From positions 1-38,558 of the IMG/VR virus record IMGVR_UViG_3300019776_001125: a stretch of 38,558 nt of DNA. One strand, written 5' to 3'. Under the pieces are notes generated by a model, which worked only from the letters and a program-made list of their open reading frames with translations, was not told where the DNA came from and did no database searches. Positions 1-24,056 of the stretch are shown here, in pieces (the first letter of the stretch is position 1; each line of letters opens with the position of its first letter). Source of the stretch: a virus. Position numbers and translations under genes: made by a program.

Positions 1-1752
1 TTATTGACCAACAAGATGAATCGCCAGTTCTTTCAATTGTGCATCATCGATTGGGGAAGGGGCATCAATCATTACATCTCTTCCGCTATTGTTTTTCGGG
101 AATGCGATGTAATCACGAATGGAATCTGATCCGTTCATGGTTGCAACCAATCTGTCTAAACCGAAAGCCAATCCGCCATGCGGAGGTGCACCAAATTCGA
201 ATGCATTCATCAGGAATCCGAATTGTTCCTGTGCCTGTTCAGGTGTAAATCCAAGCAATTCGAACATTCTCGCCTGTAAATCTTTGTCGTGGATACGAAT
301 GGAACCACCACCGATTTCAACGCCGTTTAAGGCCAAATCATATGCATTTGCGCGAACCTTTCCTGGTTCAGTTGTAATCAAATCAAAATCTTCCGGTTTC
401 GGTGAAGTGAACGGGTGGTGCATTGCGTGGTAGCGTTCGTTTTCTTCATCCCATTCCAAAAGAGGGAAATCCAATACCCACAATGGCTTGAAAACATCCG
501 GATTTCGAAGACCAAGTTCCGTTCCCATGCGCAAACGCAATTCATTCATTTGCTTACGTGTTTTGTCCAAATCACCACTCAATACGAAGATCAAATCGCC
601 CGCGTTTGCTCCACAAGCTTCTGCCCATGCTTTCAACGTAGCTTCGTCGTAGAACTTGTCTACAGAACTTTTGAATGTCCCGTCAGCGTTACATTTCACG
701 TAAACCAATCCTTTTGCACCAATTTGTGGACGTTTCACCCAATCAGTGATTTCATCCAATTGCTTACGGGTATACTCGGATGCTCCCGGAACAGCAATTC
801 CGATCACCGCTTCTGCGCTATCGAATACTACAAAGTCTTTTCCGGCACTCAGTGCTTTCAAATCGGTGAAGATCATATCAAAACGGATGTCCGGTTTATC
901 GGAACCGTATTTCTCCATGGCTTCCGCATAGTCCATTCTTGGGAAGTTTCCTTCGAATTCAACGCCGCGAACTTCACGGAACAAGTGTTTTACCAGACCT
1001 TCGAACATGTTCAGAATATCTTCTTGTTCTACGAACGCCATTTCGCAGTCAATCTGTGTAAACTCCGGTTGGCGGTCAGCACGCAAATCCTCATCGCGGA
1101 AACACTTCACAATCTGATAGTAGCGGTCGAACCCGGAAACCATCAACAATTGCTTAAACGTCTGTGGCGATTGCGGAAGCGCATAGAATTCACCTTGATT
1201 CATACGGCTTGGCACCACGAAATCGCGGGCGCCTTCCGGTGTTGATTTGATCAAATATGGAGTCTCAACATCCCAGAATCCCTGTGAGTCGAGGTACTTG
1301 CGTGTTTCAAGAGCAACCTGATTGCGCAGGCGCAGTTTGTTTTGTACCGGAGTACGACGCAAGTCCAGGTAGCGGTACTGCGCGCGTAACTCGTCACCAC
1401 CGTCTGTATCGTCTTCGATGGTAAACGGAGGTGTTTTAGCAGCGTTCAAAATGGTCAATTCCGACACTTTGATCTCGATATCTCCAGTTGGAAGATTGGC
1501 ATTTTTGCTAGAACGTTCAATGATTGTTCCTTTTGCCTGAATCACAAATTCACGACCAAGTTTACGCGCCTGCATGCACAAATCGGAGTTGTCGTCCAGG
1601 TTGAATGCCAACTGCGTGATTCCGTAACGGTCGCGCAAATCAACGAAGGTCATTCCACCCAAATCGCGTGAGCGTTGTACCCATCCTGCTAACGTAACTT
1701 CTTGTCCGATGTGCGAAGCTCTTAATTCTCCGCATGTGTGCGTTCTAAACAT
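1..1752 (-). CDS. aspS: Aspartyl-tRNA synthetase
   Basis: Class II synthetase that charges tRNA-Asp in the cytoplasm. The N-terminus ([11 protein letters not shown]) opens an OB-fold anticodon-binding domain ([20 protein letters not shown]). The catalytic core follows, with the class II motif 2 region [18 protein letters not shown], an internal bacterial-type GAD insertion, and motif 3 ([16 protein letters not shown]) near the C-terminus. The product is 583 aa, normal for bacterial AspRS. The frame is open further upstream to 1806, but those 18 extra residues do not look like AspRS and the family N-terminus fits the ATG at 1752. The gene is complete; its stop is the first codon of the window on the minus strand. 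It is a host housekeeping gene. Confidence 0.97.
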
Positions 1753-1811
1753 TGCTAAAATTTGTGAGCGACAAAGATAGCGTTTTAGTGAATAGTAAAT
1801 AGGCAATAGTG

Positions 1812-1845
1812 ATTAGGCAATAGTTTGATTTTCCTATTGCCTAAT
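1812..1845. repeat. Intergenic inverted repeat, 12-bp arms
   Basis: Perfect 12-bp arms ATTAGGCAATAG and CTATTGCCTAAT surround a 10-nt loop between the phoH stop and aspS. The core AGGCAATAG also occurs just to the left (about 1801-1809), and TGCCTATTTT follows to the right. On the minus strand the hairpin lies downstream of phoH but has no clear U-tract. It may be a weak terminator or a short intergenic repeat. Confidence 0.6.
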
Positions 1846-1868
1846 GCTGTTTTCTTTTGCCTATTTTA

Positions 1869-3194
1869 CTATAAAAGTTCATTCGCAAGATTGGCCAATT
1901 CCGAGCGTTCTCCTTTTTCAAGGCGAACATGAGAGAACAATGGCTGACCTTTCAGACGATCGATGAGATATGCCAATCCATTCGAGTATTCGTCAAGATA
2001 TGGTGTATCGATCTGGTGAACGTCGCCAGTGAACACAATTTTGGTTCCTTCTCCGGCGCGGGTAATGATGGTTTTCACTTCGTGCGGAGTAAGGTTCTGG
2101 GCTTCGTCCACGATAAATAGAATGTTCGACAAACTTCTACCACGGATAAATGCAAGTGGAGTAATGAGAATGCGTCCGCTTTCTTCCATTTCCACAATGC
2201 TTTTGTGTTTCTTCTCGTTTTCACCGAATTGAGATTTGATGAACTTGAGATTATCCCACAAAGGTTCCATATACGGACCGATCTTGTCTTTTGCGTCGCC
2301 AGGAAGGTAACCGATTTCCTTATTGGAAAGAGGAACCAGAGGACGCGCAAGAATAATCTGTTGAAACAGTTTGTGTTGTTCCAATGCCGCGGCCAATGCA
2401 AGTAGGGTTTTACCCGTTCCTGCCACTCCCTGCAATGCTACCAGTTTGATGTTGTTGTTCATCAATGCATTCACAGCGAAGGCTTGTTCCGCGTTTTTCG
2501 GTTTGATCCCGGAAGTGTATTCTTTTTCTACGCGCTCCAGATGATCTGTAAGTGGGTTATAGTATGCAAGTGATGAAGATTTACCGTTTTTCAGGATGTA
2601 GTATCCGTTGGCAACCTTCTGATCGCCAAGTACTCCTTCTTCCTCAATATTTCCTTTCAGGAATAACGTTTTAATGACATCGGAATCAACACCTTCAACT
2701 GTATTGGTGGAGGTAGCCTGTAATTCCTGATCGTCGACCTTACCGGTTTCATAGTCTTCAGCGTGCAAGCCCAATGCTTTGGCCTTGATACGGAGGTTAA
2801 TATCTTTGGTAACGAGAACAACTTCTTTCGTTTTTTCCGTTTCGTGAAGATGCAGTGTTGCGTTGATGATTTTGTGATCGTTTTTTCCGACACCATAGGT
2901 CTCCTCAGCATTTGCGGTTTTGGGAGTAGCGTCGAGGACAACCTTGAAACTTCCGTGTTCTGCGCCGAGCGGAATCCATTTTTGCAGTCCTTTTGAAATG
3001 GAAAGCTTATCAATGAATCGAATCACTTCACGGGCACTGAAGTTCTTGGTATCATTACCAATCTTGAATTTATCGAGTTCTTCCAAAACGGTTATGGGGA
3101 TAGCCACATCGTTTTTCCCGAAATGCATAATTGCCTGATGATCGTGTAAGAGAACAGAAGTGTCAAGCACAAAGATTTTCAATTTTTTCACCAT
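1869..3194 (-). CDS. PIN domain-PhoH family ATPase
   Basis: The 441-aa protein has an N-terminal PIN ribonuclease-like domain (KIFVLDTSVLLHD with an acidic residue at the start, then LEELDKFK, and later the acidic VTKDINLRIKA strand). A C-terminal PhoH-type P-loop ATPase follows, with Walker A GVAGTGKT and Walker B ILFIVDEAQNL. This two-domain layout matches the YlaK/PhoH2 type, thought to be an RNA helicase-nuclease. Its exact role in this host is unknown. It lies upstream of aspS on the same strand and is a host gene. Confidence 0.92.
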   Translation of the reverse strand: MVKKLKIFVLDTSVLLHDHQAIMHFGKNDVAIPITVLEELDKFKIGNDTKNFSAREVIRFIDKLSISKGLQKWIPLGAEHGSFKVVLDATPKTANAEETYGVGKNDHKIINATLHLHETEKTKEVVLVTKDINLRIKAKALGLHAEDYETGKVDDQELQATSTNTVEGVDSDVIKTLFLKGNIEEEGVLGDQKVANGYYILKNGKSSSLAYYNPLTDHLERVEKEYTSGIKPKNAEQAFAVNALMNNNIKLVALQGVAGTGKTLLALAAALEQHKLFQQIILARPLVPLSNKEIGYLPGDAKDKIGPYMEPLWDNLKFIKSQFGENEKKHKSIVEMEESGRILITPLAFIRGRSLSNILFIVDEAQNLTPHEVKTIITRAGEGTKIVFTGDVHQIDTPYLDEYSNGLAYLIDRLKGQPLFSHVRLEKGERSELANLANELL

Positions 3195-3278
3195 CGTAAA
3201 GTGTTTTGTTTAAGGTACTCTTATTGCTTCATCTCTTAACGATAGAATACCCAAACTTATTGACAGTTACATGGTTGA

Positions 3279-3311
3279 TAAAAAAAGAAGGGAAGCACTA
3301 ACTTCCCTTCT
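3279..3311 (-). terminator. Intrinsic terminator of the T9SS surface protein gene
   Basis: On the minus strand AGAAGGGAAG pairs perfectly with CTTCCCTTCT (10 bp, 6-nt loop) and is followed by a run of seven T. It begins about 20 bp downstream of the stop codon at 3332. This shows that the 3' end of the interrupted gene is intact. Confidence 0.88.
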
Positions 3312-3331
3312 ATCAATATGATAACGAAATC

Positions 3332-5200
3332 TTATTTCTGAATGACAATTCGATCCGTAACTTTTACTTCATCTTTGCTTAATTCAAGTGTATAAATTCC
3401 GGATTCCAAATGACTCAAATCTACTGTTTCGATGGTTGCCTGAACATCAAATTCAGCTACAATTCTTCCTGCCTGATCGAATACACGAGCAGAAAGAGAC
3501 TGATTTGTACCATTTTCAATTTGAATTTCTCCTGTACTTGGAACTGGGTAAACGGAAGTTGCTGCATCCAGCAATTCTTCTACGCTTTGTGTTCCGCTAC
3601 CATAGGAAGCTTTGTCTTTGTTGGAACGTGTCGTATTGAAATCCTGAGATTTCTCAGCGGTACATAGACTCGGAGCATCAACGGTTACCAAATAAGTCAG
3701 GTCAGTTTCGTCTAAAGGTGTATCCGTATAAGTGAATAAGTTAGTTGGCATCTGTGTCAATGGCACCCAACCGGTTGAAGCGCTGTAGCTCCACAGATTA
3801 AACTCGGAATACGTGAATCCTTCATAACTATCCCATGCAAGGTTGTAATTCTGACCAAGACCCTGACTAATTGTAAGGTGAATGGTTTTGTGGTGGTCAC
3901 TGAGGTCAGATTCTACACCACAACCGTCAACAGACGAAATCTTGTAACGCCATGAACGAACGGATGGTGAAGCAACGACATCGTTGAACAAGGACTCGTC
4001 GGTGTACAATACGGTTCCCGCCAATTGGTACTGACCTGCCTGAGAAGTTTCACGGTAGATGTTGAAATGATCAATCGTAGAACTCACCGGACTTTCCCAA
4101 ACCACAAGGTTGGTATTCGTAGTGGTATCTACAGTTACCAAACAGATTTCTGTGAATTCCGGCTGTGCCGCAGATACATCAACACTGATCAGGGAAACAC
4201 ATCCGTTGTTTCCGGTAGTTTGTAATACGTATGTTCCCGGACCAACATTTGCTAAGTCTTCAGAACCACTACCGTTGCTCCATAAGTAAGACGAAGCATC
4301 CGCAGAGATATTGGTGACGTTTACCGAACCGTTATTCGAACAATCCGAAGCCAATACAGTGTCTACTACCATTACCGGAGCGTTACTATTCTGAATCAGA
4401 ATCAATTCGGAGTGCATACAACCTTCATCATCAGTAACGATAGATTCGTAATATCCAGCGCTCAAGCCGCTTAGGGTAACCGCGTTTGTTCCGATTGGAT
4501 TCCCATTGGAATCTTCCCAGGAATATGTATACGGTTGAGAACCACCAATATAGTTTACGGTAACCGATCCGTTCGAAGACGAACAAGATGCATTGGTAGT
4601 GGTACTTGAATTGAGTGCAATTGCTGCCGGTTGAAGAACAGTGTAGCTTGCTGTTGTGATACAGTCGTTGTTATCGGTAATGCTTACTTCATAAGATCCG
4701 GCTGTTAAGTTCGAAACGTCTTGCGTTGTGGCTCCATTCGACCAGGTGTAGGTAAACGGAGGATTTGCCCCGTTCACTGTGAGGTTAATTCCTCCGGTAT
4801 TATTTCCATTACATGTTACGTCAGTAATGTTCTCTGTGAGCGTAATTCCATTTGTTCCAACAGAAGCTACACCAACTGCCATACATCCGTTTGCATCGGT
4901 AGTATTAAAGTAGTACTGACCGGGCTCTAAATCGGTAATCGAAGTAAATGTTGATCCGTTCGACCAGTAGCTGGTGTAACTTGGTGTTCCACCCGTAATG
5001 GTTACTGAAGCTTCTCCGTTCGCATCGTTACAATCTGCTGGAGTTGTTGTGATGGCAAGATTCGGGATTTGGTTGATGGTAACCAGAATACTGTCTTTAC
5101 CAGTACATCCCTGCTGTGAAGTTTTGGTGTACACCAAATAAGTTGAAATACTTGGTGTTGGATCGAATGAATTAGGATAGGCAAAATTTCCAACAACACC
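3332..5200 (-). pseudogene. 5'-truncated SprB-repeat surface protein with T9SS sorting domain
   Basis: About 623 codons remain of a large secreted cell-surface protein. Several SprB-type repeats are visible, with recurring motifs such as TYTWSNGATTQDVSNLTAGSY and ITDNNDC. A fibronectin-like segment follows (VSSTIDHFNIYRETSQAGQY). The C-terminal sorting domain has the typical VYPVPSTGEIQIEN start and ESGIYTLEL end, used for T9SS export and anchoring. No signal peptide or plausible start exists: the frame is open upstream of the apparent TTG start at 5137 and ends at a stop (5201-5203) exactly where the sequence changes character. The rest of the gene probably lies beyond the right end of the prophage. 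Confidence 0.85.
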
Positions 5201-7394: not shown

Positions 7395-9449
7395 ATGAGA
7401 ATAGTAACTATTAACCAGAATCATGTTTCGAGAGCGAATCAACCCATCCTGAATTCGCTCGGGAACTCCAACAAATTGCCTGAAGCAACCGCTTATGAGT
7501 ACTTCAATAATATCCTTTGTGTTCAGGTTTCCTGGGTTCTTAATTCAGGTATGCTGAAAAAGCCTTACTACGATCAACTGGTTCGTAGAAAGGTTTTTAA
7601 AGTTGTTCGTAAAGGAGGGAATGGTCGTACGGCTCTGATTGAATACTCTTCCATACGTCAAGACTTTAAAGAACTGATTGTTTCCCTCGCAGGAAATCCT
7701 GAGACAGTTTCAAAAATGGGTGTATTGGAAAAGTACATCACTCCAAACTACGAAGCCGCGTCATTCTTCACCACATATAGAAAGCCAAACGGCAAATCCC
7801 TTGGACAAGAGAAACAAGAAGAATACTTGACGAATGCACTTATCCTGGATGCAATTGATTTATGTGTTCAGAAAGCTAACGAAACCAAGCGTAAAGTGTC
7901 TGGAGCTAAAACTAAGCTTTGGCAAAATATTGCAGACGCGGTAAATGAACTTCCACTCACAAAATACCAGCACTCAATTCCATCAAATCCCAGATCTATC
8001 GAAAGACTCTACAAGAAGTACAAATCTGAAGGTTACGGATCTCTCATTCACGGTCAGGTTGATAACGATAACCGTCGAAAGATTTCCGGATCAGTTGCAG
8101 ATTGGTTGTTGGCCACGTACTGTTTGCCGAATAAGCCACTTGTTTCAATGGTTACACTGCTTTACAATCAGGAGCGCCAGAAACATGGATGGCCTTCTCT
8201 TTCTGAATCAGCTGTAAACCTTTTCCTGGAACGCCCGGAAAACAAACGTATATGGTTTCTAGCTAGACACGGTAAGGAAGCCTACAAAAACAAGTATAGT
8301 CACAAATTGGAACGCGATCGTTCAGAGTGGTTCCCAAATGCATACTGGGCAATTGATGGAACTAAACTTGACTGGATTCATTACTTCGACAATGCTTCCG
8401 GAATGGCAGCTAAATTGAAAATGGATCCTGTTTTTGATGTTTACTCGGAGAAAATCATCGGTTACTCAATCTCGGAAACTGAAGATCACACTGACCACTT
8501 CAGGGCTTTGAAAATGGCGGTTATGAATACCAGTTCCCGACCATTCAAACTTACGTATGATAATCAATCCGGACACAAGTCCAAGCGAATGCAGGAATTG
8601 TACAACGGAATCGTTGCAAGATCCGGAGGGACTCATAATCCAACACGTCCTTATGAATCAAGTAACCCTGCTGAACAAATCTTCAACAGATTCCAACAGC
8701 AAGTTATTGGCCAGTTCTGGTTCTCGGATAAACAAAGCGTTACAGTTCGTGATTTGGACAACAAACCGAATATGGATTTTGTTAAGGCCAACAAACACCG
8801 CCTTCCATCACGTGAAGAGCTGATTAAAGCATGGGAACTTGCGGTTAAACAATGGAATGAAGCAATTCATCCAACTCAGAAGGTTTCCCGAAACGAAGTT
8901 TATGCGCAATCAGCGCCATACTCAGAAGCTATTGACTCAATTGAAATCATGAACCTGTTCTGGGTGAATGAGACACAAGAAATTACGTATAAAGCAGATG
9001 GAATCACCCTGAAAATAGCAGGGATTAAGCACTCTTTCGAGGTGTACGATTCCGAAAATTCGATCGACTTACACTGGAGACGCTATAACGTTGGGCGTAA
9101 GTTCATTGTTCGATACGATCCGGAGGCGCTTGACGATTATGTCCAGCTTCTGGAAATCACCGACAACGGAGATAAAGCACTCGTAGCAATGGCCCAACCG
9201 AAACGTAAACACCAGGAGATTCCTGTTTTGATGAAGGATGGTGATAAGGCACTATGGCATCAAGATTTTAAGGTGAGAGACGAAGAGCTAAAGCGTGATC
9301 AACTGGAACTTGCAGCTCTTTTGGAACGCACTGGAATTACTCCAGAACGCTTGATTGACGAGCAAGAACTTGCAATTAAAATGGGCGGTTACATACCTAA
9401 AGATGAACGCTCCGAATCAGATTCAGAATCCATTTTCTTAAGACTATAA
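7395..9449 (+). CDS. Mu-type DDE transposase (MuA homologue)
   Basis: This 684-aa protein performs the strand transfer that integrates and replicates the phage. The N-terminal part (about 1-290) should bind the element ends. The RNase H-like core carries the acidic triad: Asp321 in YWAIDGTKLDW, Asp389 in LTYDNQSGHKS and Glu427 in ESSNPAEQIFNRF. A Mu-transposase C-terminal beta-barrel and a charged tail that could contact the MuB-like ATPase follow. Length matches MuA (about 660 aa). It forms an operon with the next gene, 10 bp downstream. Confidence 0.95.
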   Translation: MRIVTINQNHVSRANQPILNSLGNSNKLPEATAYEYFNNILCVQVSWVLNSGMLKKPYYDQLVRRKVFKVVRKGGNGRTALIEYSSIRQDFKELIVSLAGNPETVSKMGVLEKYITPNYEAASFFTTYRKPNGKSLGQEKQEEYLTNALILDAIDLCVQKANETKRKVSGAKTKLWQNIADAVNELPLTKYQHSIPSNPRSIERLYKKYKSEGYGSLIHGQVDNDNRRKISGSVADWLLATYCLPNKPLVSMVTLLYNQERQKHGWPSLSESAVNLFLERPENKRIWFLARHGKEAYKNKYSHKLERDRSEWFPNAYWAIDGTKLDWIHYFDNASGMAAKLKMDPVFDVYSEKIIGYSISETEDHTDHFRALKMAVMNTSSRPFKLTYDNQSGHKSKRMQELYNGIVARSGGTHNPTRPYESSNPAEQIFNRFQQQVIGQFWFSDKQSVTVRDLDNKPNMDFVKANKHRLPSREELIKAWELAVKQWNEAIHPTQKVSRNEVYAQSAPYSEAIDSIEIMNLFWVNETQEITYKADGITLKIAGIKHSFEVYDSENSIDLHWRRYNVGRKFIVRYDPEALDDYVQLLEITDNGDKALVAMAQPKRKHQEIPVLMKDGDKALWHQDFKVRDEELKRDQLELAALLERTGITPERLIDEQELAIKMGGYIPKDERSESDSESIFLRL

Positions 9450-9459
9450 CAGTAACACC

Positions 9460-10305
9460 ATGGAACAACTACAAAAACAACAGATTACCAGTGCAATCGT
9501 AGAAATGACAGCACGTATTTCTCAAAACAGAATTGCTTACCGTTCGGGAGTATCTCCTACAACTATCAGCCAAATCGTAAACAACAACTGGTCACTGATC
9601 CGTGACGAATTGTGGCGTAAGATCCAGAACAACCTGAAGATTGACTTGAACTGGAACCATGCAGAAACAAGCAACTTCAAAACGTTGATGATATTTCTTT
9701 CAGCGGCTCAGGAGCGATCACTTTCCATTGCGATATCAGAGCGAGAAGGTCATAGCAAATCACATTCATACAAGTACTATGAACGCGTGAATGAAAATGT
9801 GATTTACGTAGAATGCAAAACGTCCTGGACAAAGAAGCAGTATGTTCAATCATTGCTTCGTTCTTCCGGTCTTCAGAGTGATGGAACGGTTGGTGAACTG
9901 ATTGACAATTTCGTTGATCACGTTAGAGGTTTGCAAAAGCCGATTATCATCATTGATCAAGCGGACAAATTGAAAGATCCTCAATTGGATTTGTTCATGG
10001 ATTTCTACAACGATCTTGAAGGTCATTGTGCCTTTATTCTGTCCGGAGTTCCCGCATTAGAGAAACGTATTTTGAAAGGCGTTCAACGTGATAAGATCGG
10101 TTACCGAGAGATGTACTCCAGAATTGGTAGAAAGTTCGTGAAACTCCATAAAACGACGTTAGAAGATGTACAATCCGTATGTAACGCGAACGGTTGTACA
10201 GATGAAGACTTTCAAATTGAGATCTTCAACAAGTGTGAAGGCGATATGCGCAGGGTTCGTCGAATGATTGATCAATGGTTCCTAACCAATAAGAACGCTG
10301 CATAA
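9460..10305 (+). CDS. MuB-like transposition ATPase (target selection)
   Basis: The 281-aa protein has an N-terminal helix-turn-helix (MTARISQNRIAYRSGVSPTTISQIV) followed by an AAA+ domain, the arrangement of MuB. MuB coats target DNA and activates the transposase. The Walker A is degenerate (SEREGHSKSHS, about 93-103: Lys100-Ser101 kept, the glycine before the lysine replaced). The Walker B is PIIIIDQAD, with Gln167 where Glu is more usual. The stop codon overlaps the next start (TAATG), indicating coupled translation. Confidence 0.88.
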   Translation: MEQLQKQQITSAIVEMTARISQNRIAYRSGVSPTTISQIVNNNWSLIRDELWRKIQNNLKIDLNWNHAETSNFKTLMIFLSAAQERSLSIAISEREGHSKSHSYKYYERVNENVIYVECKTSWTKKQYVQSLLRSSGLQSDGTVGELIDNFVDHVRGLQKPIIIIDQADKLKDPQLDLFMDFYNDLEGHCAFILSGVPALEKRILKGVQRDKIGYREMYSRIGRKFVKLHKTTLEDVQSVCNANGCTDEDFQIEIFNKCEGDMRRVRRMIDQWFLTNKNAA

Positions 10306-12710: not shown

Positions 12711-13202
12711 ATGAAAGAAAAGAAATACACTCGCACCATTGAAAACGTTCGAATTTTAAAAGAATGGATCGGATTTGATCATTTTTCAATGCAGGACTTC
12801 TGGTTTGAAGCTGGATTTACACCTGAAGAATTGAAAGAGAAAACTCGACGTTGGGAAATTGTTGAAGTTCGTCAGGTAGGAGTTGCGTGGGCGGTTCTTT
12901 CAGGGCACACACTTAAACAGGCTGCTGATATGTTTGATCAAAACCATTCTACAGCTCTGTACTCTATAGATTCCGTAATGAATACTTTGATTTATCCAGG
13001 AATGTATCCAGATCAATATCAGTTGCTGATGCAGATCTGCCGAAGAAGTCACAGCTCAATGCTCAGTAAAGATCTAAATGTCGGATCACTGAGAATTATG
13101 GACGTGGTAATAGCACCACTTCTGGACATCAAAGATCCGAGTGATAAAGCACGTTCAAATCTCATTCAAAACAGAATCAACCAGCTCAAGATTTCAGCAT
13201 AG
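12711..13202 (+). CDS. DnaA domain IV-like DNA-binding protein
   Basis: In this 163-aa protein, residues about 50-90 match the DnaA C-terminal DNA-binding domain: VEVRQVGVAWAVLSGHTLKQ followed by the signature-like DQNHSTALYSI (compare RDHSTVLHA in DnaA). There is no AAA+ ATPase domain. It probably binds a specific phage or host sequence and could act in replication control, but no target is visible. Confidence 0.78.
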   Translation: MKEKKYTRTIENVRILKEWIGFDHFSMQDFWFEAGFTPEELKEKTRRWEIVEVRQVGVAWAVLSGHTLKQAADMFDQNHSTALYSIDSVMNTLIYPGMYPDQYQLLMQICRRSHSSMLSKDLNVGSLRIMDVVIAPLLDIKDPSDKARSNLIQNRINQLKISA

Positions 13203-13220
13203 GTGACCCGCCTGTCAGGG
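13201..13220. repeat. Leader repeat, copy 1
   Basis: This copy begins inside the stop codon of the DnaA-like gene and lies just before the lipoprotein gene at 13235. It is identical over 20 bp to the sequence at 13463-13482 before the first DGR target, and a short ATAAA follows both. It contains the dyads GGTGACC and CCTGTCAGG, suggesting a protein-binding site or structured leader. Confidence 0.65.
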
Positions 13221-13234
13221 ATAAAATAATAAGA

Positions 13235-13462: not shown

Positions 13463-13482
13463 AGGTGACCCGCCTGTCAGGG
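13463..13482. repeat. Leader repeat, copy 2
   Basis: Identical to 13201-13220 over 20 bp. It ends 5 bp before the ATG of the first DGR target gene, so it is part of that gene's leader. The spacing to the following ATG differs between copies (14 versus 5 bp). Confidence 0.65.
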
Positions 13483-13487
13483 TATAA

Positions 13488-13970
13488 ATGCTCAACAAAA
13501 TGCATAAAAAAACAGTTGAAATGACGCTTGAAATAGCGGAAAAAATGTACAAAGGATCTGATGAGTCGTTGCGCTCACTAGCTCTTCAAAATTTCCCTGA
13601 ATTAGGGATGAAAATCACCGATCGTGTTAAAACATTTGAAGATGCATGTAAGATGGTTGGTGTAGATTCTGGCTCGGATTTTTTTACGAATAGTTATTTA
13701 CGTCCGCATGAATTAGCCCAGCGTAAAATCGAAACAATTATTCGGGCACTAAATGAGGAATGGGAAGCAAACTGGGATGACTCATCTCAATACAAATATC
13801 GTCCTTGGTTTAAAAGGTCTTCGTCCGGTTCCGGGTTCTCGTACCTCGGCTACGACTTCGCTCTCGCGTTTTCGCTTGTCGGTTCCCGCCTCGTTTTCAA
13901 AAGCAGTGAATTATGTGTTTATGCAGCAAAACAATTCACTGAAATCTACAAAGAAATGTTCACCCTATAA
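13488..13970 (+). CDS. DGR target protein 1 (variable protein)
   Basis: The 160-aa protein carries variable repeat VR1. The N-terminus (about 5-40: KTVEMTLEIAEKMYKGSDES) resembles a short helical module seen in other Bacteroidota proteins. From about residue 50 it is homologous to the next gene: KTFEDACKMVG, EEWEANWDD, SQYKYRPWF, then the invariant SSSGSGFS, the variable stretch 119-132 and the conserved SRLVFKSSEL tail. GSGF and GSR-type motifs around a variable core fit the C-type-lectin-like fold of DGR targets, but the fold is inferred. No signal peptide is present. There is a second possible start at Met5. Confidence 0.88.
   Translation: MLNKMHKKTVEMTLEIAEKMYKGSDESLRSLALQNFPELGMKITDRVKTFEDACKMVGVDSGSDFFTNSYLRPHELAQRKIETIIRALNEEWEANWDDSSQYKYRPWFKRSSSGSGFSYLGYDFALAFSLVGSRLVFKSSELCVYAAKQFTEIYKEMFTL
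13817..13887 (+). repeat. DGR variable repeat VR1
   Basis: This 71-bp repeat aligns without gaps to the template at 14379-14449. It differs at 13 of the 16 template adenines (to C 4 times, T 6, G 3) and at none of the 55 non-adenine positions. It encodes residues 111-133 of target 1; variable codons are 119-128, 130 and 132. The first 26 bp contain no adenine in the template and are identical in all copies apart from the flank. Confidence 0.95.
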
Positions 13971-13981
13971 AATAAAAGATC

Positions 13982-14347
13982 ATGTATACAGATATCAAAA
14001 CATTTGAAAACGCTTGTCAAGTATTGAATATTCAACCATTACTTCCTGATGTTTCCATGCTTCCAGAAGCAAATCAGAAAGCGGTCATTGCTAACTACAA
14101 ACTTGACATCATTCAAGAAGCCATCAATGAAGATTGGAAGCCCGATTGGTCGAATTATAGCCAATACAAATACTATCCTTGGTTCGAACAGTCTTCGTCC
14201 GGTTCCGGGTTCTCGTGCCACGTCTTCGGCTGCGCTTACTCGGATTCGGGTGTCGGTTCCCGCCGCGTTTTCTCTTCATCAGCTATTGCGGAATATGTCG
14301 GAAATCAATTCATCGATTTGTACAACGACGCAATGTGGGTTGAGTAA
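13982..14347 (+). CDS. DGR target protein 2 (variable protein)
   Basis: The 121-aa paralogue of target 1 lies 11 bp downstream. It shares KTFENACQVLN, EDWKPDWSN, SQYKYYPWFEQ, the invariant SSSGSGFS and a C-terminal SSAIAEYVGNQFIDLY, and has VR2 at residues 71-93. It lacks the N-terminal module of target 1. There is no signal peptide or membrane segment, so the protein is probably cytoplasmic or a minor virion component. It belongs to a family common in Bacteroidota phages and plasmids as I recall it; its ligand is unknown. Confidence 0.88.
   Translation: MYTDIKTFENACQVLNIQPLLPDVSMLPEANQKAVIANYKLDIIQEAINEDWKPDWSNYSQYKYYPWFEQSSSGSGFSCHVFGCAYSDSGVGSRRVFSSSAIAEYVGNQFIDLYNDAMWVE
14191..14261 (+). 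repeat. DGR variable repeat VR2
   Basis: This 71-bp repeat aligns without gaps to the template. It also differs at 13 of 16 adenines (G 7, T 4, C 2) and at no other position. Only two of the substituted adenines have the same outcome as in VR1 at every changed base of the codon (GAT to GCT and AGT to GGT), so the two repeats were diversified separately. Both VRs continue with CGCC(T/G)CGTTTTC after the homology ends, a candidate initiation-of-mutagenic-homing (IMH) element. Confidence 0.95.
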
Positions 14348-14378
14348 TTGAAACAGGTGGTGCATGTCAACTGCGTTA

Positions 14379-14449
14379 GTCTTCGTCCGGTTCCGGGTTC
14401 TCGTACAACGACTACGACTACGATAACACGAATTCGAATGTCAGTTCCC
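14379..14449 (+). repeat. DGR template repeat (TR), noncoding
   Basis: This 71-bp template lies between target 2 and the reverse transcriptase gene. Read in the VR phase it would encode SSSGSGFS followed by YNDYDYDNTNSN and VSS. All 16 adenines fall in TAC, GAC/GAT, AAC/AAT, ACG or AGT codons, so adenine mutagenesis cannot create a stop codon. After 14449 it diverges from the VRs (ATCTATGC instead of CGCC), giving the IMH* side. The 108 bp from 14450 to the RT start are noncoding and correspond in place to the spacer needed for cDNA priming in other DGRs; a small TGCCA/TGGCA hairpin is at 14481-14493. Confidence 0.95.
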
Positions 14450-14557
14450 ATCTATGCTATTCATAATGACATGCAGACCCTGCCAACATGGCAAAAAATC
14501 ACTTTAAAAACGGGCGTTAGTAACCAGTATGGCGAAAGTGACCAATAAGCAAAGGCG

Positions 14558-15520
14558 ATGAGACGAATAAACAATTTATACAAATCAATCATAAGTTTGG
14601 ATAATCTGCGTTTGGCCGATAAAAAGGCCCAGCGCGGAAAGTCCAAGCAATACGGAGTTCAGGTACATATTTCACAAGCTGAAACAAATTTGTTTTTGCT
14701 TCACGAAATGCTGTTGAATCAAACTTATTCCACTTCGGAATACGATGTTTTCAAGGTGTACGAACCAAAAGAACGCGAAGTTTATCGTCTTCCATACTTT
14801 CCGGATAGAATCACGCACCATGCTATAATGAACATCCTTGAACCTGTTTTTGTGTCAAGGTTTACCCGAGACACTTACAGTTGCATTAAAGGACGTGGAA
14901 TTCATGCTGCGGCAAGACAAGTACGGAAAGGTTTGAAAGATCGATCAGGAACAACGTATTGTTTGAAATTCGATATTAAAAAGTTCTACCCGAATATTGA
15001 TCACGATGTATTGAAGGGCCTACTACGGCGTAAATTCAAAGATGACAGATTATTGTGGTTGCTAGATGAACTAATTGATAGTGCGCCCGGATTACCAATT
15101 GGTAACTATCTCAGTCAGTACTTTGCAAACTTCTATCTAACCTATTTTGATTACTGGGTTAAGCAGGAACTTAAACTGAAGTACTACTACCGATATGCTG
15201 ATGACATTGTTATTCTATCCAACAACAAACCGCACTTACATTCTGTACTGTCAGAAATCAGAAAATACCTGGAGTGTGAATTAAAATTGAAAATCAAAGA
15301 AAACTACCAGGTATTTCCGGTTGAATCTCGTGGAATTGATTTCGTGGGATATAGAATGTACCACACTCATACGCTTTTAAGAAAACGAATAAAGAAAAGC
15401 TTTGCCCGAATGGTTAAGAAGCGGCCAAATAAGGCTTCAATCGCTTCCTATTCCGGTTGGGCAAAACATGCAAACACAAAACATCTAATTAAAAAACTAT
15501 TGAATGACAACAAGATTTAA
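14558..15520 (+). CDS. DGR reverse transcriptase
   Basis: The 320-aa enzyme copies the TR RNA with adenine-specific errors. Visible RT motifs are CLKFDIKKFYPNI with Asp139, the DGR-type motif 4 LPIGNYLSQ (179-187, where other RTs usually have Q-G), YADD with Asp215 and Asp216, and RGIDFVGYR (258-266). There is no maturase or endonuclease domain and length is within the DGR range. The gene is on the same strand as TR and both targets. A separate Avd-type accessory protein is not obvious nearby. Confidence 0.96.
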   Translation: MRRINNLYKSIISLDNLRLADKKAQRGKSKQYGVQVHISQAETNLFLLHEMLLNQTYSTSEYDVFKVYEPKEREVYRLPYFPDRITHHAIMNILEPVFVSRFTRDTYSCIKGRGIHAAARQVRKGLKDRSGTTYCLKFDIKKFYPNIDHDVLKGLLRRKFKDDRLLWLLDELIDSAPGLPIGNYLSQYFANFYLTYFDYWVKQELKLKYYYRYADDIVILSNNKPHLHSVLSEIRKYLECELKLKIKENYQVFPVESRGIDFVGYRMYHTHTLLRKRIKKSFARMVKKRPNKASIASYSGWAKHANTKHLIKKLLNDNKI

Positions 15521-15797
15521 GGATCTGGGAATAAAGACAGAAACCACACATTTTACAGGTGATAAAATCAAAATTCAGAAGGTCTTGAATAAGGAAATTA
15601 AAATTTTGAACTATACGATTTCACCATCGAAAATCAAGGGTAACTATGTCCAAATGCATGTTGAAGTTTGTGGCTCGAAACACGTGATTTTTACAGGTTC
15701 AACTGTGCTAATGCAAACATTGGAAAAGGTTCCAAAAGACCGATTCCCTTTTTCCTCAACTATCGTTCAGGAAGGAGAACACTTTGAGTTCACTTAA
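15504..15797 (+). CDS. Hypothetical protein, small beta-rich
   Basis: The 97-aa protein overlaps the RT gene by 17 bp and so is probably co-translated with it. The sequence (YTISPSKIKGNYVQMHVEVCG, HVIFTGSTVLMQTLEKVPKD, STIVQEGEHFEFT) looks like a small beta-barrel; the GSTVLMQTLE segment recalls phage single-strand DNA-binding-like proteins. It could be a nucleic-acid-binding DGR accessory factor, but it lacks the helical, basic character of Avd. Function unassigned. Confidence 0.7.
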   Translation: MTTRFKDLGIKTETTHFTGDKIKIQKVLNKEIKILNYTISPSKIKGNYVQMHVEVCGSKHVIFTGSTVLMQTLEKVPKDRFPFSSTIVQEGEHFEFT

Positions 15798-19584: not shown

Positions 19585-19614
19585 ACAAGGAGTTGCTTTA
19601 TAGCAGCTCCTTGT
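19585..19614 (-). terminator. Hairpin at the end of the MuF gene
   Basis: ACAAGGAGTTGCT and AGCAGCTCCTTGT form a 13-bp stem (one G-T pair) with a 4-nt loop that contains the MuF stop codon. On the minus strand only a weak U-rich tract follows (CTTGGTTTTC). It may cause partial termination or stabilise the upstream mRNA, lowering expression of gpG relative to portal and MuF. A further dyad, ACGGT/ACCGT, lies at about 19518-19536 in the 102-bp gap before gpG. Confidence 0.55.
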
Positions 19615-20899
19615 TGATTTTATCAAATCCGTTATCATACGTAAGCCCCTTTTTCTGAAGCTTCAATACTTTTTCGCCATTCTTCATGAGCACGAACTGA
19701 ATTCTGCTACTGGTGTTTATTTTACCATTCATGGCATTCCACATTTCCCGGGCATTATCAGTGGTCAATTTCCCTCCGAAATCAAACGCGATGAAGCACT
19801 CATCAAACTGCTTCAGCTGCTTCTGATACTTTCCTTTCCAGTTGGTTTGAATGTAGTTCCCAATGCTTTTAGACTCTTCCCAGGTAGTGAGATCCCCGAC
19901 AACTTTTCCGGATTGCAGCTCTGGTTTTCTACCAACCCCTGAATTGGATCTGATCATGTAATCCTCTTTGTACTTCTTTACAAAAGGCTGAATAAACTGA
20001 AGGTTTTGATCCAGGTCTTTTGTGTCAGCGTTTACATGCACGAAAACAGACTGTTTTCCGACCTTTAACTTCAGTAGTTCAGTATCATTGTCCCTGAACT
20101 CGTTTAATTGATCTCTGAGCTTCGCTTTTGTGGCTTTATCAGCATTTAATACAAACGGAGAAGTCGGTGAAAATATGCGACCTGACTTTCCGGGATTGCC
20201 TTCAATACCTGGAATTGGTTCCGGCGCTTCTACATCGTCTCCCGTCACATCTTCTCTGGTCTGAGAAACACCGCATTGACAACCCCATCTTGACGGCGGC
20301 CAAAGTGTGTCCCAGATTGGATCGTTGATCGGTCTAATGATGCCATAGTACTTCACGTGTTCTTCGCTTGGTTCGGCAGCAAGAGACGGCAAGTACTTGA
20401 CATTCGGATAAACATTTTTGTTCTCGTTGAACTCCTTCCATTGCAGCGCCGCCCGTGCCTGGCGAACTGCCATATTGTATTCTGTTTCTAACCATGTACT
20501 GTTGTACTGTTGATTGATACCAGCAGCTGCTTGCCGGAATTCATTCCAGGTTCTTCGCTTTCCTGTTTCATCAACAAGCGCATCCATGTACTGACCAGCT
20601 TGTGAATGGCTTTTGAATATTGAGAATACCCCAACATTGGATTTCAACTCCATCACCATTTTGATGTCTTGTACATCATACTCGGTTTTGTATCCCTCAC
20701 TCACTCCGTCAGAAAGACGATTGAAAGTTCCTCTATACAATTCCTCCGGAAGATCTTCGTCTCCCTCAAAGAATTTTCTCAAAATCTTGTCGAATTGTTC
20801 CTGGTCAATTGCTTCAGCTGAGAACTGCGGAAGATCTATAGCGCCAGTAACGTGCAAGTAAATTGAGTTTACAGCCCCGACCAGTTCGGGGCTTATGCG
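19598..20899 (-). CDS. MuF-type minor capsid protein, probably read by -1 frameshift from the portal gene
   Basis: The frame is open from 20905 to the stop at 19598 and contains no ATG before the domain; the first conventional alternative start is TTG at 20857 (CTG at 20884). The protein has the Phage_Mu_F signature: GIIRPINDPIWDTLWPPSRW followed by GCQCGVSQ. MuF proteins sit at the portal and help head assembly. The residues encoded between the shift site and the TTG (ISPELVGAVNSIYLHV) look like ordinary protein. The C-terminal ~150 residues (MIRSNSGVGRKPEL, FDECFIAFDFGGKL, IQFVLMKNGEKVLKL) resemble BECR/CdiA-type nuclease modules that are sometimes fused to MuF; that part is inference. Confidence 0.85.
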   Translation of the reverse strand, partial: RISPELVGAVNSIYLHVTGAIDLPQFSAEAIDQEQFDKILRKFFEGDEDLPEELYRGTFNRLSDGVSEGYKTEYDVQDIKMVMELKSNVGVFSIFKSHSQAGQYMDALVDETGKRRTWNEFRQAAAGINQQYNSTWLETEYNMAVRQARAALQWKEFNENKNVYPNVKYLPSLAAEPSEEHVKYYGIIRPINDPIWDTLWPPSRWGCQCGVSQTREDVTGDDVEAPEPIPGIEGNPGKSGRIFSPTSPFVLNADKATKAKLRDQLNEFRDNDTELLKLKVGKQSVFVHVNADTKDLDQNLQFIQPFVKKYKEDYMIRSNSGVGRKPELQSGKVVGDLTTWEESKSIGNYIQTNWKGKYQKQLKQFDECFIAFDFGGKLTTDNAREMWNAMNGKINTSSRIQFVLMKNGEKVLKLQKKGLTYDNGFDKINKELL

Positions 20900-20905
20900 A
20901 AAAAA
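20873..20905 (-). promoter_or_regulatory. Predicted -1 ribosomal frameshift signal (portal to MuF)
   Basis: On the minus strand the portal codons TTT TTC, preceded by T, form the heptamer T TTT TTC (20905-20899) in the exact X XXY YYZ phase. A 5-nt spacer (GCATA) follows, then a perfect 8-bp GC-rich hairpin, AGCCCCGA / TCGGGGCT, with loop ACTGG (20893-20873). The portal stop codon (20895-20893) lies between. After a -1 shift the ribosome enters the MuF frame. Confidence 0.8.
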
Positions 20906-22113
20906 TCATCAGCACGAGCTGTTGTTCCTGGCTTAACGCTTCTTGGATTAGGAACCGCTTTTTTAGTTACCGGGATGTTGAAGTTGTCGGTGATGAAATC
21001 CTCCGGGATATCATACTCTGATAACAACTTGTCAACCACTTCCAGCAGGAACTTCAAATCTCTTTGGCGTTCGAATTGGAACGTTAGATCCTGGAACGGA
21101 TATCCCATTGAAACCAATCTTGGAAGTATGCGCTGATTCATGATCCCTTCGAACCACATCATGTCAGCCATAGTAACAAGGTTCTGGATATCCTGACCTA
21201 CTTCTTCCTTGCTCCGGGAACCTCCCTGTGATGCCTCACCAATTACAGCTCCATTGATCAATTTTGAAAGCTTCGCTGCGCAGGTCTGCATCAACTTGTC
21301 AAACACATTGGATCCATCAGTCTTGGCCGTTTCAACGAACTCCAGAGTTTCGTCCTTGTTCAGAATTGCAAAGCTTGCGGTGCCCATGTCCAGCAACATC
21401 TTTTCCATTTGTCCCAAGTGCGCTTTGTCAGTGGCATTGGTTTTGGCAACGCGGACCGGCATCACGAACTTTTCAGCATATTCTGACCATGCCGAAAGTG
21501 CAAATCGCATGAATAGAATGTATGGAGCTGCTTTCGCCAGGAATCCTAAATCGTTAGGTTCCCCGAACTCAAATAACCATCTGGAGTAACTCTGATCTTC
21601 GCGATACAAGATCCCCTTTTCATCACCCACTTTGTCAATCCACAAACCTAATTCAGGGATAATATGGCGGCGATTTAACAGTTCAACATCATCAATCAAT
21701 CCTTCCGGAGTAAGAGATTTTATTTCAACAACGGAAGTACCCCAAGGCTTTGAATCCAGACCGTAATCCAATAGTTTTTGAAACCATTGCGTTTTTAGCA
21801 TCTTCGTTGCTTCTTCGTCAGCTTTGTTATCTGCATTCAATAAATCGAATGAAGCCCCTTTAATGCGGAGCTTACGTCGCGTTTCCCATTCAGAGGTAAA
21901 ATCCCCATCAATTACCAGGTTGTTATACAAGCGGTACAACAACTCTCTGTTCGGCTTTTGTGGGTTTTCAGCAGCCTGAAGCGCTTTAAGCCAATCGGCA
22001 ATAATCTGTCGGCCTCTTTGTTGCTGTGCAGCAACAAATTTGCGTTCTGAAAGCCGTCCTTTTCTTGTTACCGGTGTTGGTTCTTTTCCGGTTTTGTATC
22101 CAATCTGAGCCAT
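20893..22113 (-). CDS. Portal protein (DUF935, Mu gp29-like)
   Basis: The 406-aa protein forms the dodecameric portal vertex. The DUF935 pattern is visible: an N-terminal basic leader, LLYRLYNNLVIDGDFTSEWE, RRKLRIKGASFDLL, then QWFQKLLDYGLDSKPWGTSV, and later SWAEYAEKF-like and GEASQGGSRSKEEVGQDI segments. It follows the gp36-like gene with a 1-bp overlap. The 3' end carries the frameshift signal, so a small share of ribosomes should make a portal-MuF fusion of about 838 residues. Confidence 0.92.
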   Translation of the reverse strand: MAQIGYKTGKEPTPVTRKGRLSERKFVAAQQQRGRQIIADWLKALQAAENPQKPNRELLYRLYNNLVIDGDFTSEWETRRKLRIKGASFDLLNADNKADEEATKMLKTQWFQKLLDYGLDSKPWGTSVVEIKSLTPEGLIDDVELLNRRHIIPELGLWIDKVGDEKGILYREDQSYSRWLFEFGEPNDLGFLAKAAPYILFMRFALSAWSEYAEKFVMPVRVAKTNATDKAHLGQMEKMLLDMGTASFAILNKDETLEFVETAKTDGSNVFDKLMQTCAAKLSKLINGAVIGEASQGGSRSKEEVGQDIQNLVTMADMMWFEGIMNQRILPRLVSMGYPFQDLTFQFERQRDLKFLLEVVDKLLSEYDIPEDFITDNFNIPVTKKAVPNPRSVKPGTTARADDFFA

Positions 22114-22535
22114 TAAAAATACGGGTTTTGAGGTGTTGATGAATTGCCGAATCTAAGAGGTGTTGTTGGGTCTTCATCCTTCACCGGTAGTTTTGGTGAG
22201 ATGAATCCTGACGAAACTTTCTCCAGCCAGTTAATTGCGTTATTGTATCGCTTCTCTCGAAGTTCCGGCACGTTATGTGGCATTACCTTTGCATGAGCGT
22301 TGAAAAGTGTGATATCCACTAGCTTTTGAATAACTGTGTTGATACCGTTGTAATCTCCAGAGAGATCGCGATCGAAGCATTTTGATGCATCATTTCGAAT
22401 GTCCAGGTAACCTGTCATTTCTCCTATTGCTGCAATTTCAGCTGCATCAAGTACTGTTTCATCGCCTCCTGTAACATCCTCCAGGATGTTTTCCTCAATT
22501 ACTGACAGGAGGTCGTCCATTGTTAAAATATCCAT
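22113..22535 (-). CDS. Mu gp36-like protein (DUF1320)
   Basis: The 140-aa protein has AAEIAAIGEMTGYLDIRNDA, ITLFNAHAKVMPHNVPELR and EKRYNNAINWLEKVSSG, the helical pattern of DUF1320 / gp36 head-completion proteins. In Mu this gene follows the capsid gene; here it sits between TerL and portal. Confidence 0.8.
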   Translation of the reverse strand: MDILTMDDLLSVIEENILEDVTGGDETVLDAAEIAAIGEMTGYLDIRNDASKCFDRDLSGDYNGINTVIQKLVDITLFNAHAKVMPHNVPELREKRYNNAINWLEKVSSGFISPKLPVKDEDPTTPLRFGNSSTPQNPYF

Positions 22536-22538
22536 GCG

Positions 22539-24056
22539 TTAATATTTACGTGATTCCGCTCTCACAATGCGGTGTGGAGCTCTAATGAGTACATCAAATG
22601 AATCCAGGTAATCAAAAGCGTACTTGTCTGCATCCGGAGCATCATCGTGCGATCGATATCCGGGTTCAATTCCTTTGAGTTGTGCCAAACCGACCTGAGT
22701 GTCGTTGTGGGATTTCAGTTTCTCATTGTAGTAGATACGTCCGTTCTGATACTGTGGAAGCATCTCGATCATCGCATCATATTTGTTTCCACTCCTACGA
22801 TCGATTTTTACAAGGTTTAAATGGCCTTTAAACTCTGTTTGAACCTCGTTGATAAGCCGGTAAATTTCATCATTCCAGAACTGTGATTCGAACCCAACCT
22901 GAACTGAAACTCCTTCCGGAAGATTTTTCTGAAAGTCCGCAATCCAGTTCAGCGCATCCTTTACTTTCGATTGCTTAACAAAGCAGTCAATCAGGTACTT
23001 TTTACCGTCCTTAAGCCCCCAGATCCGTATTGCGTTGTAGTCACTCGTTTTAGTTCCTCCGTACGCGACATCCCAACGCCCTACAATCGTTGTCATTGAT
23101 TTTAGCGATGGAAGTTTCGTCCACTGAATGAAGTCATCCAGGAATAGCTTTCCTTCAATGTGCGGTGTGTTGTTGTACTCGGCCAGCGCACGGATGGTTC
23201 CGATTTCCGCTTCAACCTCCTTAAAAAACCACCGATCGTATTTCTGATGCCATGTTGGTTTATGAGTTACGGGATCGTATGCATTCACCAGGTCTACATC
23301 CCAGGAATCATTTTCCTCAATTATTTTCGAGAAGATCATTCGTGGTGTCCAATGGTTCTGAGCAATCAATACACGGCGGCTCTTGTTGTCCATTGCGGGT
23401 ATTACACCCCGCAGGAACCACTCAGCATATTCATCCTGTCTTTTTGGATTCTTAGCCGTTTCTTTACTTTCCCAGTCATCGGCCACCACCATATCAGGTC
23501 GGTCAGCTCCAACGCGAATACCGCGTGGATCTTGCCCCATACCTATGGCTTTTGCTTTGAATCCAGATGCGGTTACAAAGAATCCGGCCTCCCACTGTCC
23601 CTGAACCTTTTGTGCTCCGAAATCGTGGATGAGTAGTTTGTTGTGTTCGAATTCGGCCTGAAGGTCACCAAGTAAGATCTGTGCTTTATCCTCAGTTTGA
23701 CCAACTACAAGCAGGAACTTCGTTTCTCCGTTCATCCATAACCATAGTGGTAGGAGAACAATTGCAACGACTGATTTTGCGTGCCCACGCGCCCACTTCA
23801 ACCATCCTTTGTATTTCTTGGATCTTCGAACCTTCCGTGCCAGGCGAATGTGGAAATCCGGAGTTTCACTTTCTGAGTAATGCTTGAAGTATGTCTCAAC
23901 CATATACTTGAAATCGTTCTTTGCTCTCGCAATACGCTTTTTCTGATCTTCAGGAGTTTCAAACGGATTTATATCCGTATTGTCGGTAATCCGTTGAATC
24001 AACTGAATATACCGTTGTTGGGCTTGTTTGTCCTTCAGTTTGAAAGTATCAGACAT
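22539..24056 (-). CDS. Terminase large subunit (TerL)
   Basis: The 505-aa DNA-packaging motor has an N-terminal ATPase with a Walker A-like WARGHAKS (88-95) and Walker B DMVVADDWE (188-196). The C-terminal RNase H-like nuclease starts at GRWDVAYGGTKTSDY with its first catalytic Asp and ends with DAPDADKYAFDYL. The order and length match Mu gp28-type terminases. Its start overlaps the stop of the small subunit gene. Confidence 0.94.
   Translation of the reverse strand: MSDTFKLKDKQAQQRYIQLIQRITDNTDINPFETPEDQKKRIARAKNDFKYMVETYFKHYSESETPDFHIRLARKVRRSKKYKGWLKWARGHAKSVVAIVLLPLWLWMNGETKFLLVVGQTEDKAQILLGDLQAEFEHNKLLIHDFGAQKVQGQWEAGFFVTASGFKAKAIGMGQDPRGIRVGADRPDMVVADDWESKETAKNPKRQDEYAEWFLRGVIPAMDNKSRRVLIAQNHWTPRMIFSKIIEENDSWDVDLVNAYDPVTHKPTWHQKYDRWFFKEVEAEIGTIRALAEYNNTPHIEGKLFLDDFIQWTKLPSLKSMTTIVGRWDVAYGGTKTSDYNAIRIWGLKDGKKYLIDCFVKQSKVKDALNWIADFQKNLPEGVSVQVGFESQFWNDEIYRLINEVQTEFKGHLNLVKIDRRSGNKYDAMIEMLPQYQNGRIYYNEKLKSHNDTQVGLAQLKGIEPGYRSHDDAPDADKYAFDYLDSFDVLIRAPHRIVRAESRKY

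Follow-up and report, generated by a model that had tools for sequence, protein, structure and literature searches.

What does a diversity-generating retroelement (DGR) diversify when its targets are small proteins encoded among the early genes of a Mu-like prophage? The window analysed here, the whole of an IMG/VR record (IMGVR_UViG_3300019776_001125; 38,558 nucleotides), contains such a cassette in the following setting:

1–5137, minus strand: host chromosomal flank encoding AspRS, PhoH and a SprB/T9SS protein (domain search)
7395–10305, plus strand: MuA-like transposase and MuB-like ATPase, transposition genes of the early region (Pfam)
19598–24056, minus strand: Mu F-like protein, Mu-type portal and terminase, packaging genes (domain and PHROG search)

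The left 5.1 kb is Bacteroidota chromosome, in which the SprB-repeat protein carries a type IX secretion sorting domain. The flank is followed by a Peptidase_S24 repressor, the MuA/MuB-like genes and a long series of small genes, all on one strand, that includes the cassette. On its 3′ side, encoded on the opposite strand, lie the F, portal and terminase genes of Mu type; next come head, sheath, tape-measure and baseplate genes, and the right end of the window is truncated within the tail region. An earlier note on this DNA placed the cassette in the early region of a Mu-like prophage, and both points hold. The Portal_Mu match (E 7e-61) is accompanied by Mu F-like, DUF3164, rve, MuB-like, sheath and terminase matches (the transposase rve match, E 2e-6, is under the curated cut-off, and the ATPase matches AAA/MuB_C), and the cassette is embedded in genes for replication, recombination and transposition, just ahead of those for packaging. 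The claim that fibre genes lie 22 kb away stands in part: tail genes begin with the sheath at 28.4 kb and continue to the truncated right end, with no identifiable fibre gene among them. The cassette itself is organized as follows:

13488–13970, plus strand: target A, 160 aa, first of a tandem pair, with VR1 and an extra N-terminal helical region (phrog_11581)
13817–13887, plus strand: VR1, 71 nt, inside the target A ORF (repeat comparison)
13982–14347, plus strand: target B, 121 aa, the last gene in the tandem pair, with VR2 (phrog_11581)
14191–14261, plus strand: VR2, 71 nt, inside the target B ORF (repeat comparison)
14361–14369, plus strand: 5′ arm of a predicted RNA stem closing the template repeat (TR), TGCATGTCA (folding, covariation)
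14379–14449, plus strand: TR, 71 nt, 16 A and 55 non-A, intergenic (repeat comparison)
14467–14475, plus strand: 3′ arm of the same predicted stem, TGACATGCA (folding, covariation)
14558–15520, plus strand: DGR reverse transcriptase (RT), 320 aa, with LPIGNYLSQ and YADD (Pfam, PHROG, RT tree)
15504–15797, plus strand: ORF97, candidate DGR accessory protein, 97 aa, overlapping the RT 3′ end (RT linkage, RT fusion)

The cassette is a DGR of an active lineage. Gap-free alignment reproduces the repeat structure reported before: each VR differs from the TR at 13 of its 16 adenines and at 0 of the 55 other positions, and 13 randomly placed mismatches would all hit the 16 A among 71 positions with a probability of 1e-11 per VR. 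Ten adenine sites are altered in both VRs, with the same base at only three of them, which indicates that VR1 and VR2 were rewritten independently. Both VRs are situated in the 3′ part of their targets, ending about 28 codons ahead of each stop, and each comprises 12 variable codons that allow about 3e9 protein variants and no stop codon. The repeat is extendable to 14378–14450 in TR coordinates. The 3′ ends of both VRs read on as GTTCCCGCC where the TR has GTTCCCATC, the type of difference expected of IMH versus IMH*. In BPP-1, DNA hairpins have been described downstream of the VR (PMC3240598).

The RT is intact, and its translation bears the SQ motif and YADD as previously read; it matches Pfam RVT_1 (E 4e-19) and the reverse transcriptase PHROG 1423 (E 3e-123). 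An SQ-type RT with YxDD, adenine-only TR/VR pairs and VRs near the 3′ ends of the targets are thus all present, and natural VR polymorphism at template-A sites is found in relatives. The targets do not belong to a tail module of the BPP-1/Hankyphage type and are small early genes amid DNA metabolism and packaging functions. Among the cassette proteins and the neighbours searched, no Pfam match to Avd, HRDC or MSL accessory genes was obtained. Avd is usual in DGRs and not universal, so that its lack does not exclude membership.

Relatives were collected from viral sequences (76 loci from a search with target B and 47 from a search with the RT) and from Bacteroidota genomes (26 loci, found with an alignment of target-B proteins), and were scanned by a script for repeats differing at A only. 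Isolates with target-B loci include Flavobacterium, Elizabethkingia, Yeosuana, Dyadobacter, Emticicia and Paraflavitalea; no target B homologue was found in INPHARED phages or PLSDB plasmids. Where RT identity is at least 55%, nearly all loci consist of two (sometimes three) small tandem targets, a TR and an RT, and roughly 90 relatives, contigs as well as isolate genomes, share the order target A, target B, TR, RT. In the RT tree, a single clade with support 0.95 contains 91 of the 92 RTs that have small targets. That clade also takes in L108, one crAss-like RT whose target is a tail-collar protein, and a truncated contig. For the more distant RTs with a target found, most targets are approximately 500–2,600 aa long.

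The mechanism is taken from known DGRs, and natural polymorphism in relatives is the basis for activity. Two loci, L100 and L101, show 6 differences in 2,257 nt, all six within a VR and opposite a template A; since they differ at such sites only, the lineage is active. In 12 further pairs, whose DNA outside the VRs has diverged by 2–12%, 21–61% of the template-A sites in the VRs differ, with 0–3 non-A VR differences of up to 123 (8/120 in L090/L100). Such homogenized non-A sites show repeated overwriting from the TR in these relatives. The L052/L064 and L062/L064 pairs have one VR identical and the other different at 14 sites, and the two VRs are therefore rewritten independently. The window's own phage is considered active because its parts are intact and non-A mismatches are zero, the polymorphism itself being seen in relatives. 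It is highly improbable that its DGR is an inactive relic: viral and Bacteroidota searches yielded no near-identical relative in which the activity of this phage could be observed, but an intact RT and two VRs with 0/55 non-A mismatches would require recent retrohoming.

The TR RNA is predicted to close on a stem formed by the two arms listed above, with a total energy that is not unusual (z −1.5). For the TR flanks of 52 dissimilar loci, the mean longest helix was 8.96 for a locus's own flanks versus 7.13 for flanks swapped between loci. The observed value was reached in 0 of 2000 permutations, and the set comprises 49 distinct arm pairs. This better pairing of own flanks constitutes covariation evidence for the stem. 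Complementary, covarying arms around the TR (14361–14475 in the window) occupy the equivalent place in about 50 loci. An RNA structure has also been described in BPP-1, in the spacer between TR and RT (PMC12875486).

A homologue of ORF97 was detected by profile search directly 3′ of the RT in 88 of the 92 loci with enough sequence. The same domain, of about 95 aa, is a C-terminal fusion beginning near residue 326 on six more distant DGR RTs (L106, L111, L114, L116, L118 and L120), and it adjoins the RT as a separate gene in the archaeal viruses ANMV-1 (L150, 3453–3749) and vir525 (L151, 3501–3788). Because of this linkage to the RT and the fusion to other DGR RTs, ORF97 is most likely a DGR-specific accessory domain serving the RT where no Avd is seen; nucleic-acid binding is a possible, putative activity. 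A Pfam match to ribosomal L31 was rejected (E 0.0014, under the cut-off, in only 2 of 44 family members). PMC10053308 cites, from an earlier survey, one DGR-associated protein that has no Pfam attribution, and ORF97 may be the same thing. The earlier note, right about the cassette and its DGR nature, had missed ORF97, the TR-closing stem and the separateness of the two target subfamilies.

Both targets, confirmed as small paralogues of 160 and 121 aa that each contain a VR, belong to phrog_11581, a PHROG of unknown function. In a tree built with the VR masked, the best clade contains 80 of 88 first-gene targets and 3 of 89 last-gene targets, and 7 changes of the first/last labels are needed versus about 59 after shuffling. 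This split indicates an old duplication kept as a pair. Judged by the tree, A and B are two subfamilies that arose by ancient duplication and have each been conserved separately; most members of both retain a VR. A 27-nt direct repeat with short self-complementary ends (starting AGGTGACCCGCCTGTCAGGG; 13201–13227 and 13463–13489) precedes two consecutive genes, the second of which is target A, and is possibly a leader element. Further VRs of the same TR were found 3.6–9 kb from the RT in L132/L139 (Dyadobacter sp. Leaf189), L143 and L065; being in extra small target genes, they indicate that remote targets exist. The genome of the isolate Emticicia sp. BO119 carries two DGR cassettes of the lineage (L140 and L145). 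In a more distant version on a 67-kb viral contig (L068, 7665–9869), whose RT has 44% identity, a target homologue is located on either side of the RT, and the script detected no TR/VR there.

No known domain was found for the targets in Pfam, NCBIfam, PADLOC or PDB sequences. The predicted structures consist largely of helices, and the VR loop is poorly defined in them (pLDDT <50). A fold search, in which the VR loop was not modelled reliably, retrieved no C-type lectin or other PDB match, and the matches in BFVD are unnamed phage proteins, several of them crAss-like. A signal peptide or membrane segment is absent in 213 of 216 targets; the other three have a hydrophobic segment resembling a membrane helix that probably reflects mis-called starts. 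No lipoprotein-like N-termini are present in the target alignments. PADLOC analysis of the targets and their neighbours gave no defence link beyond generic RT and ATPase matches.

The genomic position of the cassette was compared across the lineage. A lineage that is always Mu-like is rejected, MuA/MuB being detectable in only 23 of the 50 loci with 8 kb upstream; several loci without them have primase-helicase, RecT, AAA or methylase genes there. Of the named PHROGs to which larger neighbours belong, the most frequent upstream are ATPase, hydrolase, RecT, primase, transposition protein, DnaB and methyltransferases; downstream they are minor head protein, portal, terminase, helicase and methyltransferases. 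The 25 commonest families of either side include no tail family. Target homologues without a nearby RT or TR occur in L075 (7662–8282), L076 (7722–8345) and L146 (9824–10363). These lie within or next to the recombination modules of Bacteroides-type prophages, with genes for an SMC-like ATPase and an MBL-fold hydrolase as neighbours; the targets of L040 are in a similar place, beside AAA, RecT and MBL-fold genes.

The best explanation, to which we assign a probability of roughly 0.55, is that a DGR of an active lineage diversifies two intracellular binding proteins for conflict. The RT would copy the structured TR RNA, inserting random bases opposite adenines, and the copies would overwrite the VR of either target gene via mutagenic retrohoming. 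With no Avd present, ORF97 would serve the RT as accessory domain, as its linkage and fusion suggest. The targets may be soluble, probably cytoplasmic binding proteins encoded together with early DNA-metabolism genes, a view based on their location, the 213 of 216 sequences without a membrane segment, the non-DGR homologues and the structure models. A and B probably act together or on two partners, since they are separate, co-inherited subfamilies. A hypervariable loop would enable the phage population to keep pace with a changing intracellular partner. That partner would most likely be a competing phage, or a defence or nuclease factor of the host, rather than a receptor at the surface; the likeliest reason for diversification appears to be counter-defence or competition against other mobile elements. 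The intracellular role proposed earlier gains indirect support from the location in about 90 relatives, the lack of membrane segments and the non-DGR homologues, a support that does not extend to function or to absence from the virion. The composite picture of a temperate-phage DGR lineage evolving paired intracellular binders for counter-defence or against competitors, with a fold other than the C-type lectin, a non-Avd accessory domain and a TR stem, is tentative, and we regard it as possible rather than probable.

The main rival is virion association, in which the targets are small adsorption proteins (tip or accessory) encoded outside the tail operon and the DGR serves host tropism, as it does in BPP-1 and Hankyphage. 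Most annotated viral DGR targets are indeed tail proteins (PMC8144416), the nearest named RTs, those of crAss-like phages, either diversify a tail-collar gene or have a tail protein as neighbour, and the GSRLxF segment 3′ of the VR resembles that of the tail targets found here. This reading is nevertheless unlikely given that Mu-like and other phages alike keep the cassette among genes for replication and recombination, that the targets are small and have neither a structural domain nor a PDB fold match, and that non-DGR homologues reside in recombination modules.

The recurrence of a compact unit in unrelated phage backbones and the co-inheritance of RT and targets would also suit a mainly selfish passenger, in which targets, TR, RT and ORF97 move together with little benefit to the phage. 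The conserved rather than scattered genomic place, the conservation of the target A and B cores outside the VR and the persistence of homologues without a DGR make this improbable. Display of lysogen-expressed targets on the host surface, where they would alter adhesion or block superinfection, has even less in its favour: the absence of a signal peptide or membrane segment from 213 of the 216 targets and of lipoprotein-like N-termini argues against it, although the cassette is near the lysogeny region of the prophage and many cellular DGR targets are membrane-anchored (PMC8144416).

Among described systems, the Hankyphage DGR also resides in a transposable phage of Bacteroidota (Bacteroides/Phocaeicola) and acts by template-adenine mutagenesis of a VR, but it has Avd and one large target, with the VR at residues 2188–2225 of a large ORF (PMC6199706) named as a tail fibre gene in PMC12135933. 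The contrast that the earlier note drew with the small early targets of 160 and 121 aa holds; no Avd is seen here. The closest named RTs (48–55% identity) are those of crAss-like phages such as CrAssphage LMMB and cr52_1, and in the tree the LMMB RT is a member or immediate neighbour of the small-target RT clade; unlike the present cassette, these DGRs have a single large target (a tail-collar fibre gene in LMMB, a tail protein beside the RT in cr52_1) and no ORF97 match with the profile used here. ANMV-1 and vir525 share an ORF97 homologue directly after the RT, whereas their RTs are distant (37–41% identity) and their targets are adtA or a tail protein of about 390–450 aa. BPP-1, a Bordetella phage, shares the TR–RT mechanism and a structured TR RNA context, and differs in having Avd and a tail-fibre target, Mtd, with a C-type lectin fold. 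Two targets with one TR are likewise found in tentaclin DGRs (PMC10743442) and Bacuni phages (PMC8143477), but there the targets are C-type-lectin tail adhesion proteins and Avd is present. The conflict-system DGRs of multicellular bacteria have a proposed anti-phage conflict role and often two targets, but are bacterial, with large NTPase-linked targets containing C-type lectin domains (PMC10907252).

DGRs of Mu-like Bacteroides phages, multi-target DGRs and conflict-system DGRs are thus already known (PMC6199706, PMC12135933, PMC3521204, PMC10743442, PMC10907252). A global survey, in which the targets of viral DGR clades were mostly annotated as tail proteins, may include the small-target family without naming it (PMC8144416). 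In the literature searched, phage DGR lineages whose conserved pair of targets is small and lies in the early module are not described, nor are the RT-linked accessory domain or the TR-closing stem.

The ORF97 domain, separate or fused, and the TR-closing stem provide handles on the working of DGRs without Avd. The sequenced isolates that carry the lineage (Flavobacterium, Emticicia, Dyadobacter, Yeosuana and Elizabethkingia) make the idea of conflict testable. Phage DGRs are generally understood as changers of host tropism; an active lineage that rewrites small non-tail early proteins would extend targeted hypermutation to intracellular conflict.
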